Of a DNA stretch of 58,320 nt, positions 4,082 to 12,653 are shown one piece after another. Both the position numbers and the translations under genes were made by a program. Numbering within the stretch: the stretch's first letter is position 1; every line of letters begins with the position of its first letter. The notes below the pieces were generated by a model. The model saw only the letters and a program-made list of their open reading frames with translations, was not told the origin of the DNA and searched no databases. The stretch is from positions 1 to 58,320 of the forward strand of contig PNOC01000021.1 in the NCBI GenBank assembly GCA_013824615.1. The letters are read 5' to 3'. The stretch comes from Thermodesulfovibrio sp. GTDB lineage: Bacteria; Nitrospirota; Thermodesulfovibrionia; Thermodesulfovibrionales; UBA6898.

Positions 4082-6346
4082 TCAGGCAGTGTCAGGAAGC
4101 CGGTCGAGAATTTCCCTGACCTTTTTGAGAAGTTTATTCGGCGAGACAGGCTTTGAAAGGAAATCCGCCGCATGGTCAATAAAGCCTTTCTGATAGATGA
4201 AGTCAGCATTATACCCGCTCAGGAACAGGACCTTAATCCCAGGATTAGTCAGGGATATTTCATCCAGAGCCTCCTTCCCGCTCTTCTTCGGCATGATGGC
4301 GTCCAGGACCAGAAGATCTATGACACCGCCAAAGTCATGCAACCGCCGGACTGCGTCTTCACCGTCCACTGCTTCTACCACCGTATACCCGGCCCCTTCC
4401 AGGACCGTGCTGATCAGTCTCCGCACATCGGCATTATCTTCGGCAACCAGTATCGCCTCCGTGCCGGTTTGGGGCTGTTCCAGATTAACTACGGGCAGCG
4501 CATCAGCCTGTTTCGTTATCAGGGGGAGATATATCCGGAATACGGTACCCTGTTCCGGTTCACTGTAGACATTGATACATCCGCCATGCTGCTGGATGAT
4601 GCCGTAAGATATGGCGAGCCCGAGACCGGTACCGCGGCCCACCTCTTTCGTGGTAAAAAAAGGTTCAAATATCTTTTCAAGGTCAGCCTTTTCAATGCCC
4701 TTCCCGGTATCGGAAACTGATATCAGCGCATAACTCCCCGGCTTGGGGGCCGGAGGGGAGGCCAGAATATTTGAGTAGTATTCCACCCTCTCTGTGGATA
4801 TGGTAAGCCGGCCGCCATCCGGCATGGCATCGCGGGCGTTGGTCGCAAGGTTCATCAGCACCTGTTCGATCTGCCCGCAGTCAGCCATGATCACCAGATC
4901 ATCCGGGGACAGCACGGTTTCGAGCTCGATGTCCTCGCCGATCAACCGTAACAGGAGCTTTTCAATATTGCGCACAATCGCATTGGCATCAACTGCCTGA
5001 GGGTGCATAACCTGCTTCCTGCTGAAGGTCAGGAGAGTCTGTGTCAGGTGAGCCGCTTTGTCAGCCGATGACAGGATAACGTCCACGTGAGTCCTGAGCG
5101 GGTCCTCAACGCCGATCTTCCTCTGCAGCAGATTACCATACCCGATAATCGCCGTGAGAATATTATTGAAGTCATGCGCAACCCCTCCGGCAAGGGTGCC
5201 GATAGCCTCCATCTTCTGCGCCTGCCTGAGCTGCTCTTCAAGATGCCGCTGCCTGGTGATATCCCGGTTGCTGGACCGCCTGCCGAGGAATACCTTGCCA
5301 TTGAATACCGGGCTGCAGACATGAGAGATCCACCGCACCTCGCCATCTTTCCCCTTAATCCTGAATTGAAGTTCATCGTGCTGGGGAGACCTGAAGTCGA
5401 CAATATGCCCGGTCCATTGTTCGCGGTCTTCGGGATGGATCACTTGCTCCAGCAGGTTCTGCTCTCCGGTAAACTCCTCGGGTGAATAGCCCGTCAGGTC
5501 GCGGCTGGACGGAGACATATAAATAATCTGGAATTTCTCGTCCAGCCAGAATTCCCATGCCGTTGCCGACTCTGAAAGCGTTCTGAATTTCCATTCACTC
5601 TCGCTCAGCTGCCTGTCCTGCCTTGTCTTAATGCGGACAAAAACAAAAAGTCCCCCGCTGCCGACCAGCCAGAGAAGCAGATGGGTTAACAGCACAATCG
5701 TCATCTGCTTGCGCTCACTATCAATATAAGGCTGCAGAGGCACTGCGATGCTGATCCCTCCCCTGATATCGCCGACCTTATATCCCTGAATGCCATGGCA
5801 CCTCAGACAACCGGCTTCAGTTATAAAGGGCTTAAGGATACGCAGATAGGGTCGCCCGCCAAGAGTGGTAATTTCAGAGGCCTCCTGCCCCCCCTGCTCA
5901 AAAGCGGTGAGCATAGCCCTCTCCCAGGTATCCGGCACGTTCGAGGGATTAATACTGTTGAGACTCCTAATTTTGCTGATGACCGGAAGAGGACTGCTTT
6001 TTTCGACCATCTCGAAAACCATTTTAGTCATATAGGCAGGGTTGACAAGGGTAAGTGACTTGCCGTCAGTCGTCTGGACGTCCCTGTCCGGAACCATCAG
6101 ATACGGATTTGGGGCCACCTTGTCTGCGCTGGCATATACCCCGCCGAGTTTCGCTCCCCACTGCCTGTATGCGCGGTTGAGCTCAAAATACGTCCTGGCC
6201 TCGACCATCGCCTCCTGCAGATTACTCTTATGCTCCGCGTATAGTGTAAAAACCATGGAAATAGCAATGAGAAGGGTCCAGCCCGCCATCAGAAACACCG
6301 GATATCTTTTCGTAATAATACGGGATATGTGGGAACGCAGGTGCAT
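4082..6346 (-). CDS. Haem-motif PAS hybrid sensor histidine kinase
   Basis: The 754-residue protein has membrane segments at about 18-37 and 215-236 that bracket a periplasmic domain. That domain carries one c-type haem motif, Cys180-Leu-Arg-Cys183-His184, followed by a [13 protein letters not shown] segment; this is the DUF3365 (Tll0287-like) sensor type. A PAS domain follows (about 255-365), then a HisKA box with phosphoacceptor His391 (GGVAHDFNN), an ATPase domain (N box near 501-504, DTGKG, GLGL) and a C-terminal receiver with Asp682. It probably senses redox state or a small ligand through covalent haem. No DNA-binding response regulator is adjacent. It is divergent from the amidase gene, sharing about 155 bases of upstream DNA. 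Confidence 0.92.
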
Positions 6347-6398: not shown

Positions 6399-6425
6399 GA
6401 TTCGGGCTCAGGCAGGCCCGAAATC
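6399..6425. promoter_or_regulatory. Inverted repeat in divergent promoter region
   Basis: GATTCGGGC (6399-6407) and GCCCGAAATC (6416-6425) form a stem with one bulged base. It lies between the divergent haem kinase and amidase genes, about 35 bases upstream of the amidase -35 element, which is a plausible operator position. No regulator is identified. Confidence 0.4.
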
Positions 6426-6459
6426 GGACAGTGCTGTCCTTCTCAGCAGGCCTCTCTGT

Positions 6460-6488
6460 TTGAATTTTTCCCTGTAAACTGTTACATT
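6460..6488 (+). promoter_or_regulatory. Promoter of the amidase-actin unit
   Basis: TTGAAT (6460-6465), a 17-base spacer and TACATT (6483-6488) predict transcription starting near 6495. The first in-frame ATG after that is at 6502, so the leader would be about 7 bases and has no ribosome binding site. Confidence 0.5.
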
Positions 6489-6501
6489 GTCTTTATCGGC
6501 T

Positions 6502-7551
6502 ATGTTATTGACCTATAACAAAAAAAGGAACCACAGAATACGGCAGAACATTCTGCGCGGAGTGTATGAAGATAACCTGAAGATCATCGGCAAAGGTCCT
6601 GAGGTGATCTACAAACACCGCTACTATGTTCCAAAGCGTTTTCTGCTGCCGGTTGTCCTGTCTTTCCTGGTTATTGTCCTTCAGAGCAATTTCGCCTCAG
6701 CGCCTTTTCTGCCGGAAAAACAGCCTGTGTCCGGACCGCGGTCAATGCCGGTCCTGGCCCTGAATGCCGACGAGAGCGAAGGGCCCTCCCACTACAAGGC
6801 CTTTATCAGCACCCCGGGCATGCCTATCAGCCGCATCTTCGGCCTCGGGGTAAGGACTATCATGATAGATCCCGGACATGGCGGCAACGACACCGGTACC
6901 AAAGGGCAGAACGGGACCAAAGAAAAGGATATTGCACTGGATATTGCAAAGAGGCTGCGCGACCGGCTCAAAAAAAGCGGCAACTTCAATATATTGATGA
7001 CGCGGGACCAGGACGTGACCGTCCCGCTTAACCGGCGGGTCGAAATGGCCAAACTCAGCCGGGCAGACCTCTTCATCTCGGTCCACCTGAATTATCTGCC
7101 GTCACGGCCTATCAATATGATCGAGACCTACTATTTCGGACCGTCCTCCGATCCGAAGGTCCTGAAGCTGGCCGAAAAGGAGAATGCAGACTCAAGTTAC
7201 AGCATCAGCGACTTCAAGGACATTATCGGCAAGATCGGGGAGACCATGAAACTGCAGGAGTCCAAAGAGTTCGCCGCCTCGATCCAGAAAAAACTTTTTA
7301 TGAACAGCAGAAAAGAAAACGGCAATGTTTATAATTTCGGCGTCAAAAGGGCACCGTTCGTGGTCCTGCTCGGGGTAGATGTCCCCGCTGTTCTGGCGGA
7401 GGTTTCCTGCCTGAGCAACAGCGAAGAAGAGGTCCAGCTTAACACAGAGCAGCACCGCGAGCATATCGCCCGCTATCTTGAACTCGGTATTTTAGATTAT
7501 CTCAATAAAGGAGACGTAACCTATGAAGCAAGACGACAGACAGACAGATGA
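6502..7551 (+). CDS. Membrane-anchored N-acetylmuramoyl-L-alanine amidase
   Basis: The 349-residue protein belongs to the Amidase_3 family of zinc enzymes that cut the amide bond between MurNAc and the stem peptide. Expected residues are present: DPGHGG (His126), Glu141, SVHLN (His195) and catalytic Glu300 in AEVSCLSN. Unusually, a basic cytoplasmic tail of about 46 residues precedes a single membrane segment (about 47-62), so the enzyme is tethered facing the periplasm rather than secreted. A TTG at 6487 is also in frame but falls inside the predicted -10, so the ATG at 6502 is preferred. Its last 29 bases overlap the actin gene, which implies coupled expression. Confidence 0.92.
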   Translation: MLLTYNKKRNHRIRQNILRGVYEDNLKIIGKGPEVIYKHRYYVPKRFLLPVVLSFLVIVLQSNFASAPFLPEKQPVSGPRSMPVLALNADESEGPSHYKAFISTPGMPISRIFGLGVRTIMIDPGHGGNDTGTKGQNGTKEKDIALDIAKRLRDRLKKSGNFNILMTRDQDVTVPLNRRVEMAKLSRADLFISVHLNYLPSRPINMIETYYFGPSSDPKVLKLAEKENADSSYSISDFKDIIGKIGETMKLQESKEFAASIQKKLFMNSRKENGNVYNFGVKRAPFVVLLGVDVPAVLAEVSCLSNSEEEVQLNTEQHREHIARYLELGILDYLNKGDVTYEARRQTDR

Positions 7552-8551
7552 GAACATACTCTTTGTCGGAATCGACCTGGGGACTTCCCGGAGTTCGATT
7601 TCAGCCAGCAACAGCACCCGGGAATGGACTGAAAGCTATGTAGGCTGGCCCAAGGACTTCATTGCCATGCAGGTGGTCGGCAAACCGGTCCTCTTCGGCG
7701 CCGAGGCCCTTGCCAACCGCCTCTCGCTCGATCTCTGCAGACCGCTCGAACACGGCGTGATCAAGGAAGGCATCAGCCGCAATGAAGAGGCGGTCAAGGA
7801 CATAATCAAGCACCTTATCGAACTTGCAAAGCCCGCCGAAGGCCAGAAGATCCACGCAGTCGTCGGGGTGCCGGCCGACACCCTGAAGGTGAACAAGCTG
7901 GCGATCAGGCGGGCGGTCTCCGAGGCGGTCGATTCCCTGATGGTCGTCACCGAGCCGTTTGCCGTGGCCTACGGGCTCAACCTCCTGAACAACTCCCTGG
8001 TCATAGATATCGGTGCAGGTACCACCGACTTCTGCATCATGCATGGCACGATCCCGACAGAGGACGATCAGAAGACTATCCTGACCGCCGGCGACTATGT
8101 CGATGACCAGCTCTTCAGCTATCTTGTCGAGAAGTATCCGAGCGCACGTTTTAACAAAAACATGGTCCGGCAGTTCAAGGAACAGTACAGTTTTGTGAAA
8201 GATATGGCGGAAGATATACAGGTTGAGATCCCGGTGAACGGCAAGCTGGTGCCGCACGATATCAAAAACGAGATCAAGCGGGCCTGTGAAAGCATTATGC
8301 CGGCGCTGACCGAGACCACGATCGAGATGATCGCCCGCTTCGACCCGGAGTTCCAGATAAAGATCAAGAACCATATCGTGCTTGCCGGAGGCGGCAGTCT
8401 GATCAGGGGTATTCGCGAGTACCTTCAGGACGCGCTGAAGGAATACGGACAGTGCAACGTGACCTGCGTGGAAGATCCGCTCTTTGCCGGCTCGGATGGC
8501 GCGCTCAAACTCGCCAAAGACATGCCCGCAAAATACTGGGAACCGCTGTAG
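7523..8551 (+). CDS. MamK-like bacterial actin
   Basis: The 342-residue actin/Hsp70-fold ATPase has phosphate-1 GIDLGTS (16-22), phosphate-2 IDIGAGTTDF (161-170), adenosine motif IVLAGGGSLIRGI (285-297) and Glu144 in the segment VTEPFAVAYG. It resembles magnetosome MamK more than MreB or ParM from memory: the WPKDFIA, LDLCRPLEHGV and C-terminal GALKLAKDMPAKYW segments have close counterparts at the same positions, and Glu144 matches the MamK glutamate (residue 143) needed for ATPase activity. A ribosome binding site AAGGAG (7508-7513) lies inside the upstream amidase gene. No magnetosome gene is in the window. Filament formation and its cargo are inferred only; orthology needs a tree. Confidence 0.88.
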   Translation: MKQDDRQTDENILFVGIDLGTSRSSISASNSTREWTESYVGWPKDFIAMQVVGKPVLFGAEALANRLSLDLCRPLEHGVIKEGISRNEEAVKDIIKHLIELAKPAEGQKIHAVVGVPADTLKVNKLAIRRAVSEAVDSLMVVTEPFAVAYGLNLLNNSLVIDIGAGTTDFCIMHGTIPTEDDQKTILTAGDYVDDQLFSYLVEKYPSARFNKNMVRQFKEQYSFVKDMAEDIQVEIPVNGKLVPHDIKNEIKRACESIMPALTETTIEMIARFDPEFQIKIKNHIVLAGGGSLIRGIREYLQDALKEYGQCNVTCVEDPLFAGSDGALKLAKDMPAKYWEPL

Positions 8552-8619: not shown

Positions 8620-9099
8620 ATGAAAAGAAGTTCATTGTTGTTCGCAGTTTGTCTGGGTCTCTTGACCCTCGTATGTGCGGCGGGAAGTGCCGTCGCAGCA
8701 GTGTCCGGCAAGGTTGTCTCTGAGACGAATGAATATGGCGGCAAAACGATCGAAAAGGTCTATGTCGTCAAAGATGTCAAGAAATCCAAAGATGTCAAGA
8801 AGGCCACGGATGCCAGGAAGGCCAAGATCGAAAAAGACATTACCTGTTTTGACGGGAAAGGGAAAAAGATCAAGGTTGAGAGCCTGTATACTGAACAGCA
8901 CACCGCCAGTACGGGCGCGGAAAGGCGTATCGCCTATTTTGACGCCAAAGGTGAGCTGATAAAGATGGAAAAATATTTCGTCGAATCCTATGCCAAACTC
9001 AAGGGCTTTGACAGGATGATCGTCTATTATGATCTGAAAAAGAAGAAGCCGAAGACCGAATATTATCTGGGTTCGAAGTTGATAAAGGCCCCGAAATGA
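8620..9099 (+). CDS. Lysine-rich exported protein of unknown function
   Basis: This 159-residue protein starts MKRSSLLFAVCLG and has a clear Sec signal peptide ending near AVAA (residue 27). The mature part is very lysine-rich, with a VKKSKDVKK stretch, then three imperfect modules of the form YFDAKGxxxKxExY (ITCFDGKGKKIKVES, AYFDAKGELIKMEK, VYYDLKKKKPKTEY) that look like beta-hairpin repeats. It follows the actin gene by 68 bases in the same direction and may belong to the same transcript. The start at 8620 is preferred over an upstream in-frame start because the signal peptide begins there and GAGAGAGG lies upstream. Confidence 0.8.
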   Translation: MKRSSLLFAVCLGLLTLVCAAGSAVAAVSGKVVSETNEYGGKTIEKVYVVKDVKKSKDVKKATDARKAKIEKDITCFDGKGKKIKVESLYTEQHTASTGAERRIAYFDAKGELIKMEKYFVESYAKLKGFDRMIVYYDLKKKKPKTEYYLGSKLIKAPK

Positions 9100-9104
9100 C
9101 CGTT

Positions 9105-12100
9105 TTACCTCAGCGCCTTATCCAGGCACTCCTTCAGCTCAGAAAGCTTGTATGGCTTGTTCAAAAAGGCGACAAAGCCGAAGTCCCGGTAATGAGCCGC
9201 AACGGGATTGTCCGCATACCCGCTTGATACTACGGCCTTTGCCTTCGGATCTATCTCCAGGATTTCCCGAATCGCCTCTTCCCCGCCGATCCCGCCTTTA
9301 ATGGTGAGATCAAGGATCAGCAGGTCAAACGGTTCCCCGGATTCTCCGGCCTGCCGGAACATTTCTATAGCCTGACTGCCGTCCTTTGCCCTTTCAACCT
9401 TGTGGCCGAGGGCCGCGATCATTTCGGCGGCCACTTTCCTCACCAGGTCCTCATCGTCCATCAGCAGGATTCTGCCCTTCTTTGCCTCAGGCGTGGCTAC
9501 AGTGACCGGCCCTTCCTCCGGCTCTCCCGCAGCAACTGCAGGCAGGTAAAGGGTAAAGGTGCTTCCCTTATTAAGTTCTGATTTCACTCTAATCTCGCCG
9601 CCGTGGTTCATTATTATCGAATACGACGTGGCCAGTCCCAGGCCGCTTCCCCTATGTTTGGTCGTAAAATAGGGGTCGAAAATTTTTGCCAGGTTCTGCC
9701 CTGCGATTCCGGTGCCGGTGTCCCGGATATCTATGCGTACGAACCCTCTCTCTGCAGACAACGAAAGGGGAGCCGTCGCCAGGCCGTCCACATTTGCAGC
9801 ACTGATATGCACCGTGCCGCTGCCGGCCATGGCCTCTTTGGCATTGAGAACAATGTTCTGGATAACCTGTGCAAGCTGACCCGCATCAGCCTCTACCTGC
9901 CACAGATCAGGGGCAAGTTCCATCTCGTAACCGATCGGGGAGCCACTCAGGGCAAACTTCGCCGCATTCTCAATCACGGGGTTAAGACTGATCCGTTTTT
10001 TAACCGGCTTGCCCCCCTTGGAGAAGGTAAGCAACTGGGTGGTGAGATTTACCGACAGATGGAGAGCCTCCTCAGCCTGTTCCAGCATGGCCAGAGACTT
10101 TTCCTTCTGGTCAATTGCCATCTTGGCCATCGAAATATAACCGAAAACTCCCTGCAGCAGGTTATTGAAGTCATGGGCGATGCCTCCGGCCAGGGTCCCG
10201 ATGGATTCGAGCTTCTGGGTCTTGAGCCGTTCTTCTTCGAGGAGGTATTTTTCAGTTATGTTGTTGATGGTTTCGATAACAGAAGTAACCCTGCCGGCCT
10301 CATCTTTTATCGGAAACGCCTTTGTCTCTACATAGAGTATGTTGCCTGCGGCATCTTTATGACGATGAAGCGCCGAGTGGGATCTGCCGCTCTCAAAAAC
10401 CTGCCGGACTGCACATTCTTCGCCTTCCTTGTAACACGGCTGGTTCAGATGATGAGACACCTCATAACAGTGTCTGCCGAGGACCGTCTCATCGCTGCCG
10501 CCCACCTGGCTGCAGTAGGCCTTATTGGCAGTCAGAATGCGATAGTCCGGATCGATGACGATAAAGCCCTCATCGACGGTATCGAGAATGCTCCTGACGA
10601 ACTCCTCGCTCTGACGGATCTTTTCCTCAGCCGCCTTGCGTTCAGTAACATCGCGCGTCACGCCCAGCAGTGCAAAGATCTCTTCCTTTTCGTTGCGCAA
10701 TGGAACAGCGTGGGTCTCCAGCCAGAGGTGGCGCCCTTTCATGCCGATGATCTCGAACAATAGTGTCCCGGTCCCGCCTTGAAAAACCCGGCTGGTCAGT
10801 TCCATAAACGGCTGTTGATACCCGGCGGCGATAAGAGGTCTGACGCATTGCCCCTTCACCTGGTCCAGGGAATCGACCTGAATCATATCCAGCCCAGCGC
10901 GGTTCATTGAAATCAGATTCGCATTCCTGTCGAGCAGCTTGACGCATGCGGGTTCTGTGTCAATGATCGTCTGAAGCATCTTCTCGCTCGCCTTCACCGC
11001 AGCCTCTGCCTGCTTTCGCGTTGTAATGTCATATGCCGTGCCGCGGCTCCCGGCGGGATTGCCCTGCCCGTCCCGGATGGCCTTGGCATTAAAAACCAGA
11101 TGAATATCGCGACCGTCCCTGCTGAGGTGAATGGTCTCGTACCCTCTGACCACACCGCATTCAAGAAGGCGGGAAAAAGTCTCGCTATCCCTGGCAGCCA
11201 GTTCCGAAGACTGAAAATCCGTAAATTTTTTTCCGAGCATCTCGTCAAGACGATACCCGAGCACGGTCTCCCAGGCCGGGTTCAGGTAGGTATACCTTCC
11301 CTCGGCGTCACACTGCCAGATAAGATCCTGTGCGGTTTCGACCAGGTCGTGATACAGTGCGACAGACTGTCGCAGCGCATCTTCGACCTTCTTGCGTTTA
11401 GTGATATCCTGCACCGTACCGACCATCTTGACCACACTGCCTTTGCTGTCACGAAGCACATCAGCCTTCGCATTGATAATGCGGCGTTCCCCGCTGTCAG
11501 TCCGGATGATTGAATAATCAATATCAAATCTTTTTTTACCGGCCAGCGAGTCCGACACAGCCTGGTTCACCCTCTCACGCTCTTCCGGAGCAACGGTCTG
11601 TATAAAGGCCTCGTAGGAAGGCTCCACATTCGGAGCAATGCCGAAGATCCGGTAGTTCTCATCAGACCAGTGCATCTTGTTCGCACGAAAATCCCATCCC
11701 CAGTTGCCCAGCCGCGCCACCAGCTGCGCCCTGGTCAAACGAGCCTGGCTCTCCCTGAGCTCGGCCTCCGCACGCTTCCGGAAGACAAGGTCCATGACCA
11801 GTGAGGAGATCAGCTGAACGGCCTGCACGTCCTCCTGGTCGTAATCAAAGGTTTTATTGCCCACGCCTATGATGGAAACAATTTTATCACCCCGGAGAAT
11901 GGGCACAACGAGTTCACGGACAACCTTCGCATGCCCCTCGGGCATTCCCTTCCTGTGGGTGAGTCCCGCATAGTCGTTATGGATAACCGGACCGCGCTGG
12001 GAAAAACAGTCCACCCAGACGCCTGCCTGGAGAATCGGATAGTGCCTGCCCTTTCCCTCAGCCGTGCACATGTTCCTGAGGGTGTTGGTCGACCAGGTCT

Positions 12101-12653
12101 GAAGGGTAAGGTTCACCTGGTCTTCGTCAACAAAATGAAAGAACCCGATAGTGCTGCCCGTATGCAGCTCCGCAGCATCGAGGGCACGCTGCAGGAGGTC
12201 GTCGATACTGCCCTGATCAGAGAGTTCCGAGAGTTCAAGCCGGATCTGAAGGAGAGCCTCGGAACGCTTGCGACTGGAAGTGTCGCGCAGGAAATTGAAG
12301 AACCGGCCTCCGTTAATCTGCCGGTATGAAACATTCACCTCCACCGCCCAGACCGTACCGTCCCTGGTGCGGTGCAGCGTCTCGAAGATATCGTTGCCTT
12401 CACGGATGATCTTCTCGATATGCTCGGCCGTCTCAGTCGTACTCTCCGGGGCCTCAAGGTCAACGATGCGCATGGCGAGCAATTCTTCGCGGGAGTATCC
12501 CGAGCGCTTTACATAGGCATCGTTCACCTCAAGAATACGGCCTTCCCTGTCTGATAACCAGAACCCGTCCGCCATAGTCTCTATGACAGCCCGATACATC
12601 ACTTCCCGGTCAATGCCAGGGGCCTCTTTATTCATGCCAGCGTTATCGCTCAA
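9105..12653 (-). CDS. Multi-PAS/GAF hybrid sensor histidine kinase
   Basis: This large (1182 residues) cytoplasmic protein has no membrane segment. In order it has a PAS domain (about 20-135), a GAF domain (about 150-290), four further PAS domains (about 300-800), a HisKA with phosphoacceptor His827 (GGIAHDFNN), an ATPase domain (DTGTG, GSGLGLA) and a C-terminal receiver with Asp1115. The phosphoryl group must pass to a histidine phosphotransfer protein or regulator encoded elsewhere. Its transmitter-receiver half closely resembles that of the kinase at 18263, including the LLTFSKGG-PVKK linker. It converges with the exported protein gene (5-base gap). Confidence 0.93.
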   Translation of the reverse strand: MSDNAGMNKEAPGIDREVMYRAVIETMADGFWLSDREGRILEVNDAYVKRSGYSREELLAMRIVDLEAPESTTETAEHIEKIIREGNDIFETLHRTRDGTVWAVEVNVSYRQINGGRFFNFLRDTSSRKRSEALLQIRLELSELSDQGSIDDLLQRALDAAELHTGSTIGFFHFVDEDQVNLTLQTWSTNTLRNMCTAEGKGRHYPILQAGVWVDCFSQRGPVIHNDYAGLTHRKGMPEGHAKVVRELVVPILRGDKIVSIIGVGNKTFDYDQEDVQAVQLISSLVMDLVFRKRAEAELRESQARLTRAQLVARLGNWGWDFRANKMHWSDENYRIFGIAPNVEPSYEAFIQTVAPEERERVNQAVSDSLAGKKRFDIDYSIIRTDSGERRIINAKADVLRDSKGSVVKMVGTVQDITKRKKVEDALRQSVALYHDLVETAQDLIWQCDAEGRYTYLNPAWETVLGYRLDEMLGKKFTDFQSSELAARDSETFSRLLECGVVRGYETIHLSRDGRDIHLVFNAKAIRDGQGNPAGSRGTAYDITTRKQAEAAVKASEKMLQTIIDTEPACVKLLDRNANLISMNRAGLDMIQVDSLDQVKGQCVRPLIAAGYQQPFMELTSRVFQGGTGTLLFEIIGMKGRHLWLETHAVPLRNEKEEIFALLGVTRDVTERKAAEEKIRQSEEFVRSILDTVDEGFIVIDPDYRILTANKAYCSQVGGSDETVLGRHCYEVSHHLNQPCYKEGEECAVRQVFESGRSHSALHRHKDAAGNILYVETKAFPIKDEAGRVTSVIETINNITEKYLLEEERLKTQKLESIGTLAGGIAHDFNNLLQGVFGYISMAKMAIDQKEKSLAMLEQAEEALHLSVNLTTQLLTFSKGGKPVKKRISLNPVIENAAKFALSGSPIGYEMELAPDLWQVEADAGQLAQVIQNIVLNAKEAMAGSGTVHISAANVDGLATAPLSLSAERGFVRIDIRDTGTGIAGQNLAKIFDPYFTTKHRGSGLGLATSYSIIMNHGGEIRVKSELNKGSTFTLYLPAVAAGEPEEGPVTVATPEAKKGRILLMDDEDLVRKVAAEMIAALGHKVERAKDGSQAIEMFRQAGESGEPFDLLILDLTIKGGIGGEEAIREILEIDPKAKAVVSSGYADNPVAAHYRDFGFVAFLNKPYKLSELKECLDKALR

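Follow-up and report, generated by a model that had tools for sequence, protein, structure and literature searches.

MamK, an actin-like protein, is known almost only from magnetosomes. Deep-branching magnetotactic bacteria use it with coiled-coil Mad proteins (PMC12748827), and MamJ occurs in magnetospirilla only (PMC10653835). A MamK-like actin of bacteria without magnetosomes, Bbp or 'big bacteria protein', has been described in Desulfobacterota and Gammaproteobacteria and placed between MamK and MreB; its operon encodes the actin, a hypothetical protein and a Kelch protein, and the paper mentions no amidase (PMC10580974). BeeR of the Verrucomicrobiota (8r2n) is likewise a MamK-related actin from outside the magnetotactic bacteria, reported in a paper that mentions neither peptidoglycan nor an operon (PMC11929497). 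Elsewhere in the actin superfamily, MreBH of B. subtilis interacts with the wall hydrolase LytE and positions and distributes it (PMC3817527). The last 17 residues of arcadin-2 bind a hydrophobic groove of crenactin, and ParR binds ParM in the same groove (PMC5173319). The full-text literature searched contained no relevant paper on both MamK and an amidase.

The window analyzed here is a stretch of 58,320 nucleotides from a Nitrospirota MAG, in which the genes for a cell-wall amidase and a MamK-family actin overlap on the forward strand. This actin-amidase operon is real, conserved and undescribed in the sources we searched, and its amidase bears a motif that is a strong candidate for docking; the physical link between the two proteins and the role of the pair are inferred. 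The block examined starts at 6399 and so takes in about 100 bp of intergenic DNA 5' of the amidase gene. Its features are as follows.

6502..7551, + strand: amidase gene, encoding a membrane-anchored AmiC-type N-acetylmuramoyl-L-alanine amidase of 349 aa; start ATG 6502, alternative TTG 6487
6550..6588, + strand: amidase tail motif I17-I29 (ILRGVYEDNLKII), candidate actin-docking amphipathic helix
6646..6705, + strand: single transmembrane helix of the amidase, approximate (hydropathy in relatives; AF2 helix, residues 45-61)
6859..7491, + strand: Amidase_3 catalytic domain, with an extra helical insert that also aligns in AmiC
7507..7513, + strand: Shine-Dalgarno-like AAAGGAG of the actin gene, within the amidase gene (read from sequence)
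7523..8551, + strand: MamK-family actin gene, 342 aa

The ATG at 6502 is the likelier amidase start, because this start is conserved across relatives. Just past the actin gene, positions 8620-9099 (+) encode a small protein with a signal-peptide-like start and no Pfam match, which might belong to the operon. Both sides of the pair are occupied on the opposite strand by genes for large hybrid histidine kinases, 4082-6346 (-) and 9105-12653 (-), with PAS-like and receiver regions (read from sequence). In about 30 other loci (L052-L068 and others, many of them in Nitrospirota) a receiver-domain gene lies within ~200 nt 3' of the actin. This downstream gene is absent in the window's own genus and offers no more than a hint of signal input.

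The first-pass annotation, made without database searches, had described the 342-residue protein as MamK-like over its full length, with the catalytic Glu and the C-terminal GALKLAxxMPxxYW region, and had noted that its gene begins before the amidase gene has ended. Both descriptions held. Residues 9-341 align with the solved AMB-1 MamK (phmmer 9e-87), the catalytic Glu is kept as E144 (VVTEPFAVAYG), as is the GALKLAxxMPxxYW end, and the actin ATG falls within the last part of the amidase gene, with an overlap of 29 nt (7523-7551). The AlphaFold2 model is a confident actin fold (pLDDT 89), and the nearest solved structure found by Foldseek is the MamK filament 5ljv (TM 0.91). The protein thus resembles MamK (NF040964, 5ljv/5jyg) in its full-length fold, at 41% identity, in its nucleotide site and in the MPxxYW signature, and also in being encoded directly 3' of a partner gene. 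Unlike MamK, it belongs to a separate clade and is not accompanied by magnetosome genes, and it is paired with a wall amidase where MamK has MamJ or a coiled-coil magnetosome protein.

Curated models point the same way. With the NCBIfam MamK model NF040964 the actin reaches 402.2 bits, barely over the cut-off of 400, and some of its relatives fall below that cut-off. It fails the BeeR model (222.5 bits, cut-off 530) and the MreB models (87.5 bits against a cut-off of 293, and 76.3 against 365.75), and the FtsA, PilM and DnaK models score far below MamK on it. The same genome encodes a separate MreB that reaches 488 bits. As opposed to BeeR, to which it is 31% identical in structure comparison, the window actin has no N-terminal extension of 30-50 aa, only ~11 residues preceding its first strand. 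No Kelch gene of the kind found in the Bbp operon was recognised adjoining the pair, although no Bbp reference sequence was compared.

In a maximum-likelihood tree of 69 sequences, the amidase-linked actins make up one side of a branch supported by 97 ultrafast bootstrap and 88 SH-aLRT. On the opposite side lie AMB-1 MamK and magnetosome-type MamKs sampled from three phyla, together with archaeal MamK-family actins and the second actins of some Gammaproteobacteria. The window actin falls within the MamK superclade, outside MreB and apart from all magnetosome MamKs. The amidase-linked actins are hence a clade separate from, yet close to, magnetosome MamK. When the tree is rooted on MreB, the outgroup branch is extremely long and the root untrustworthy, which leaves it undecided whether MamK arose from this clade or beside it. 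A search of the whole genome for magnetochrome (PF18509) gave no match over the cut-off, whereas three magnetotactic control genomes were positive. No relatives of the actin were found in viral contigs and plasmids. The first-pass annotation had considered the system distinct both from magnetosome alignment and from MreB, a claim supported by the tree and the model scores. It had also named in advance a placement with MreB, FtsA, PilM or DnaK as grounds for refutation, and the protein passed this check, by the tree for MreB and by model scores for the other three. Its statement that no mam, mad or man genes are visible held genome-wide for the magnetochrome marker.

The partner protein consists of a basic N-terminal cytoplasmic tail, one transmembrane helix, a variable linker and an AmiC-like Amidase_3 domain (Pfam 7.6e-43), and its nearest solved structures are E. 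coli AmiC (4bin) and 3ne8. It has the active-site residues of AmiC-type amidases, and its alignment with them includes the extra AmiC insert; H126, E141, H195 and E300, which bind zinc or act in catalysis, are invariant across 21 relatives. It differs from them in how it may be targeted, since a Pfam scan gives Amidase_3 alone, without an AMIN match. The usual combination of signal peptide and AMIN targeting domain is thus lacking, and a motif-bearing cytoplasmic tail, a single TM helix and a linker are found instead. The genome carries two further Amidase_3 genes, one of which encodes a conventional AmiC-type protein that has a signal peptide and an N-terminal region resembling AMIN (both features read from sequence). 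Mean entropy over 24 amidases is lowest in the catalytic domain (0.97), followed by the tail motif segment (1.41), the TM helix (2.28) and the linker (2.48). Invariant catalytic residues, in the domain of the amidase that is conserved best, mean that wall cutting is under selection in the pairing.

Support for a functional unit comes from the distribution of the two genes. MamK-model scores across 296 genomes of the phylum Nitrospirota are sharply bimodal, with 38 genomes above 400 bits and the rest below 91. The strong matches divide into 15 magnetosome-type loci, 42-45% identical to the window actin and with an amidase upstream in 0/15, and 23 loci (24 with the window) that are 63-89% identical and have the amidase immediately upstream in every case (24/24). 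A GTDB scan recovered 446 relatives of the actin, and 76 of the best 80 have an amidase directly upstream. These 80 carry the labels Nitrospirota, Desulfobacterota, Pseudomonadota, Rhodothermota/Bacteroidota, Acidobacteriota, Myxococcota and Aminicenantes, although the taxonomic label of a single MAG record may be wrong. As for the exceptions, the contig of one (L134) stops 364 bp upstream of the actin, and L143, L147 and L153 group with other MamK groups in the tree. Separate genome samples gave an amidase directly upstream in 26/26 Acidobacteriota and 4/4 Rhodothermota. The four sets overlap in part, and loci within one group are related, so that these counts are not independent. Of 92 order-level genomes in which the two genes were sought, 22 had both, 70 had neither and none was discordant, as counted by hand from the actin and amidase lists; one species of the window's genus (G252) lacks both actin and amidase. 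No natural actin-amidase fusions were found. The pairing is conserved in more than 100 loci and at least six phyla, far beyond chance, and the linkage that the first-pass annotation had asked to see in relatives is borne out by its spread across phyla and by perfect co-occurrence in the order examined. Two-gene linkage taken by itself could still stem from co-regulation.

MamK-family actins without an amidase were also seen in the Thermoplasmatota, where 25/145 genomes carry one or two of them, mostly at 317-376 bits (L239-L252, L153/L155). In the sampled loci of this group, the gene 5' of the actin encodes a zinc-ribbon-like protein.

A basic cytoplasmic tail of about 46 residues followed by one membrane helix had been noted in the first-pass annotation, and this held (~47 residues, with 12 K/R against 3 D/E). 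The description as basic nonetheless missed the main feature of the tail, which is a conserved amphipathic motif, IL[RK]xVYxENLxI. Across 21 relatives N25 is invariant and L18, Y22 and L26 are nearly so, while the linker varies freely. The motif is retained from phylum to phylum, as ILRGVYDENLRI (Desulfobulbales), LLRGVFEDNQKL (Rhodothermota) and ILKDAIRENVDVI (Acidobacteriota); some Acidobacteriota carry a degenerate form (LIEAAVRDNEA). In the amidase tail of Roseithermus sacchariphilus (L114, CP030158.1) it occurs in tandem, as ILRAVYEENRRI ... VLRGVYETNRAM. Modelled as a helix it is amphipathic, with a mean hydrophobic moment of 0.44 against 0.29 when shuffled; AF2 confidence for the tail helix is low (pLDDT ~43).

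The motif is not confined to amidases. An HMM built from the amidase tails was run on 1,473 ORFs in 119 loci, and its best non-amidase matches include the protein encoded directly 5' of mamK in magnetosome loci, where the motif forms the extreme C-terminus (ALLRGVLQENIMLRE, AFLKGIVQENIALRD, SFLKSIVMENVELRS, MFLRAIVRENINLLE); the carrier in one such match (L049) is a CheW-domain protein. With a PSSM trained on amidase tails only (pass score 8), the gene directly 5' of mamK passes in 12/15 Nitrospirota magnetosome loci, always within 12 residues of the C-terminus, as against 17/4,638 control frames (0.37%). The loci of the gammaproteobacterial second MamK-family actins were fetched after the profile had been fixed, and all four (4/4) are preceded by a protein of 86-126 aa with a hydrophobic segment that ends in the motif (MLKGIMDDNLKLR, MFKDILSENMELR, MFKQILDDNIALR, IFQQIIDENIALR). 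Among these genomes, G742 also has a magnetosome MamK, whose upstream gene lacks the motif. The upstream gene of a Planctomycetota locus (L143) contains KVLLEIFETNVKLQ.

The motif is not universal beside MamK-family actins. By PSSM it is absent from the MamJ-type MamK loci of Pseudomonadota (0/29), from Desulfobacterota loci (0/17) and from archaea (0/15), although the upstream proteins of two Desulfobacterota loci end in VLRAIMESNKLL. It was not found at MamJ C-termini in Pseudomonadota, which show a conserved LGxGVANLLGDAVGGV-like segment instead. The carriers are unrelated, comprising an amidase, a coiled-coil protein, a CheW-domain protein and a small TM protein. Because loci within a group are related, they amount to some 4-5 independent events, not dozens. 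A strict regular expression for the motif was composed after the upstream proteins were known, and the evidence rests on the amidase-only HMM and PSSM. The residues that set motif-type actins apart from MamJ-type ones were left out of the evidence, since ancestry confounds the comparison. Since the motif lies at a free cytoplasmic end, is amphipathic and is constantly adjacent to MamK-family actins on unrelated carriers, its recurrence is probably best explained by a helix that docks on these actins; binding is inferred, and there are no binding data.

Two further observations concern magnetosome loci. The LGxGVANLLGDAVGGV-like C-terminal segment is common to many Pseudomonadota proteins encoded 5' of mamK, in the MamJ position (L180-L209). 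In Nitrospirota magnetosome clusters, the N-terminal cytoplasmic tails of some MamQ-like proteins resemble the amidase motif (KIIKRVYAEDLELIE, PSSM 16.6; DILKKVYAKDLGLLG, 11.3; L040:10365-11081, L042:1-463, L046:18525-19241). The MamQ N-tails of Pseudomonadota show no motif by profile and the likeness there is weaker, so that this is a lead only.

The first-pass annotation had also suggested that a filament may position the hydrolase through the tail. The recurrence of the motif on unrelated proteins strengthens this suggestion, while the filament, the binding and the role are still inferred. We consider it likely that the pair is a two-gene module connecting cytoskeleton and wall, in which a tail-docked amidase would be positioned by an actin filament. 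The amidase would span the inner membrane with its one helix and expose its catalytic domain to the periplasm, and the amphipathic tail helix would dock on the filament of the co-encoded actin, probably in the same groove that the ParR and arcadin-2 tails use on theirs. The filament, which MamK homology makes likely to be ATP-dependent, would then concentrate and align the amidase along the membrane, and peptidoglycan would be cut along its path. The tail would thereby substitute for the AMIN domain of an ordinary AmiC. The purpose might be cell shape, curvature or daughter-cell separation, and sequence cannot tell which.

Parts of this scheme have counterparts in known systems. In the MreBH-LytE pair an actin homologue likewise distributes a wall hydrolase, but actin subfamily and hydrolase are both different, and there is no overlapping two-gene operon with a tail motif. 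Arcadin-2/crenactin and ParR/ParM also pair an actin with a co-encoded partner, there through a short C-terminal helix in the hydrophobic groove of the actin; these are other actins and their partners are not wall enzymes, and the likeness of the helices is not a claim about sequence.

Several alternatives must be weighed against this reading. The one that survives best, while still unlikely, holds that the amidase is an anchor and not cargo: its tail would tether, nucleate or cap the actin, filament control would be the main output and any response of the amidase secondary. In its favor, the groove-binding helix of arcadin-2 depolymerises crenactin filaments (PMC5173319), and the same motif is found at other loci on proteins without a wall enzyme. 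Against it stands the conservation of the enzyme, strongest in the catalytic domain and complete at the catalytic residues, which implies that wall cutting is selected. A second alternative, very unlikely in our view, is that the motif is an amphipathic helix of the general kind that lies on membranes, or that it binds some third protein, with actin and amidase merely co-regulated and not touching. The tail is indeed basic, amphipathic and next to the membrane, and binding data are lacking. Yet proteins of unrelated architecture terminate in the motif precisely where their genes lie 5' of a MamK-family actin, the motif sits at the free C-terminus, away from the membrane, in the non-amidase carriers, and its invariant Asn is, by inference, atypical of a lipid-binding helix.

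A stray or relict magnetosome MamK lying by an ordinary amidase, which the bare pass of the NCBIfam cut-off might suggest, is all but excluded by the separate clade (97/88), by the conservation of the pairing across phyla, by same-phylum magnetosome MamKs that are only 42-45% identical and never amidase-linked, and by the absence of magnetochrome genes where controls are positive. An MreB paralogue in an ordinary rod-shape operon, for which it may be said that the nearest curated Pfam family is MreB_Mbl, can be rejected with similar confidence, given at most 87.5 bits for MreB models against 402 for MamK, the genome's own MreB at 488 bits and a best fold match to MamK.

Returning to tail docking, a bolder reading can be proposed, which we favor by a narrow margin. 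IL[RK]xVYxENLxI would be an ancient docking motif of the MamK superfamily, borne by unrelated cargo or adaptors encoded directly 5' of the actin: the N-tails of wall amidases, the C-tails of coiled-coil and CheW-type magnetosome proteins, and small gammaproteobacterial membrane proteins. MamK filaments would then go back to a cargo-docking system without magnetic function, either directly or through a common ancestor, and the amidase pairing would be its most widespread survivor. The upstream motif proteins, which we do not equate with named Mad or Man proteins, may explain in part how MamK holds cargo without MamJ.

More generally, the observation in at least six phyla of amidase-linked close kin of MamK without magnetosome context gives this family a plausible non-magnetic role and a starting point for tracing where it came from. 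With the shared motif, it becomes directly testable how MamK filaments hold cargo in deep-branching magnetotactic bacteria that lack MamJ, and a tail in place of AMIN suggests a simple way in which the cytoskeleton could control an amidase. The pair with the duplicated motif is present in a named isolate whose genome is complete, Roseithermus sacchariphilus. In Rhodothermota (L119-L123, L128, L129), the pair sits between thymidylate-synthase-like and dihydrofolate-reductase-like genes, as identified by eye.
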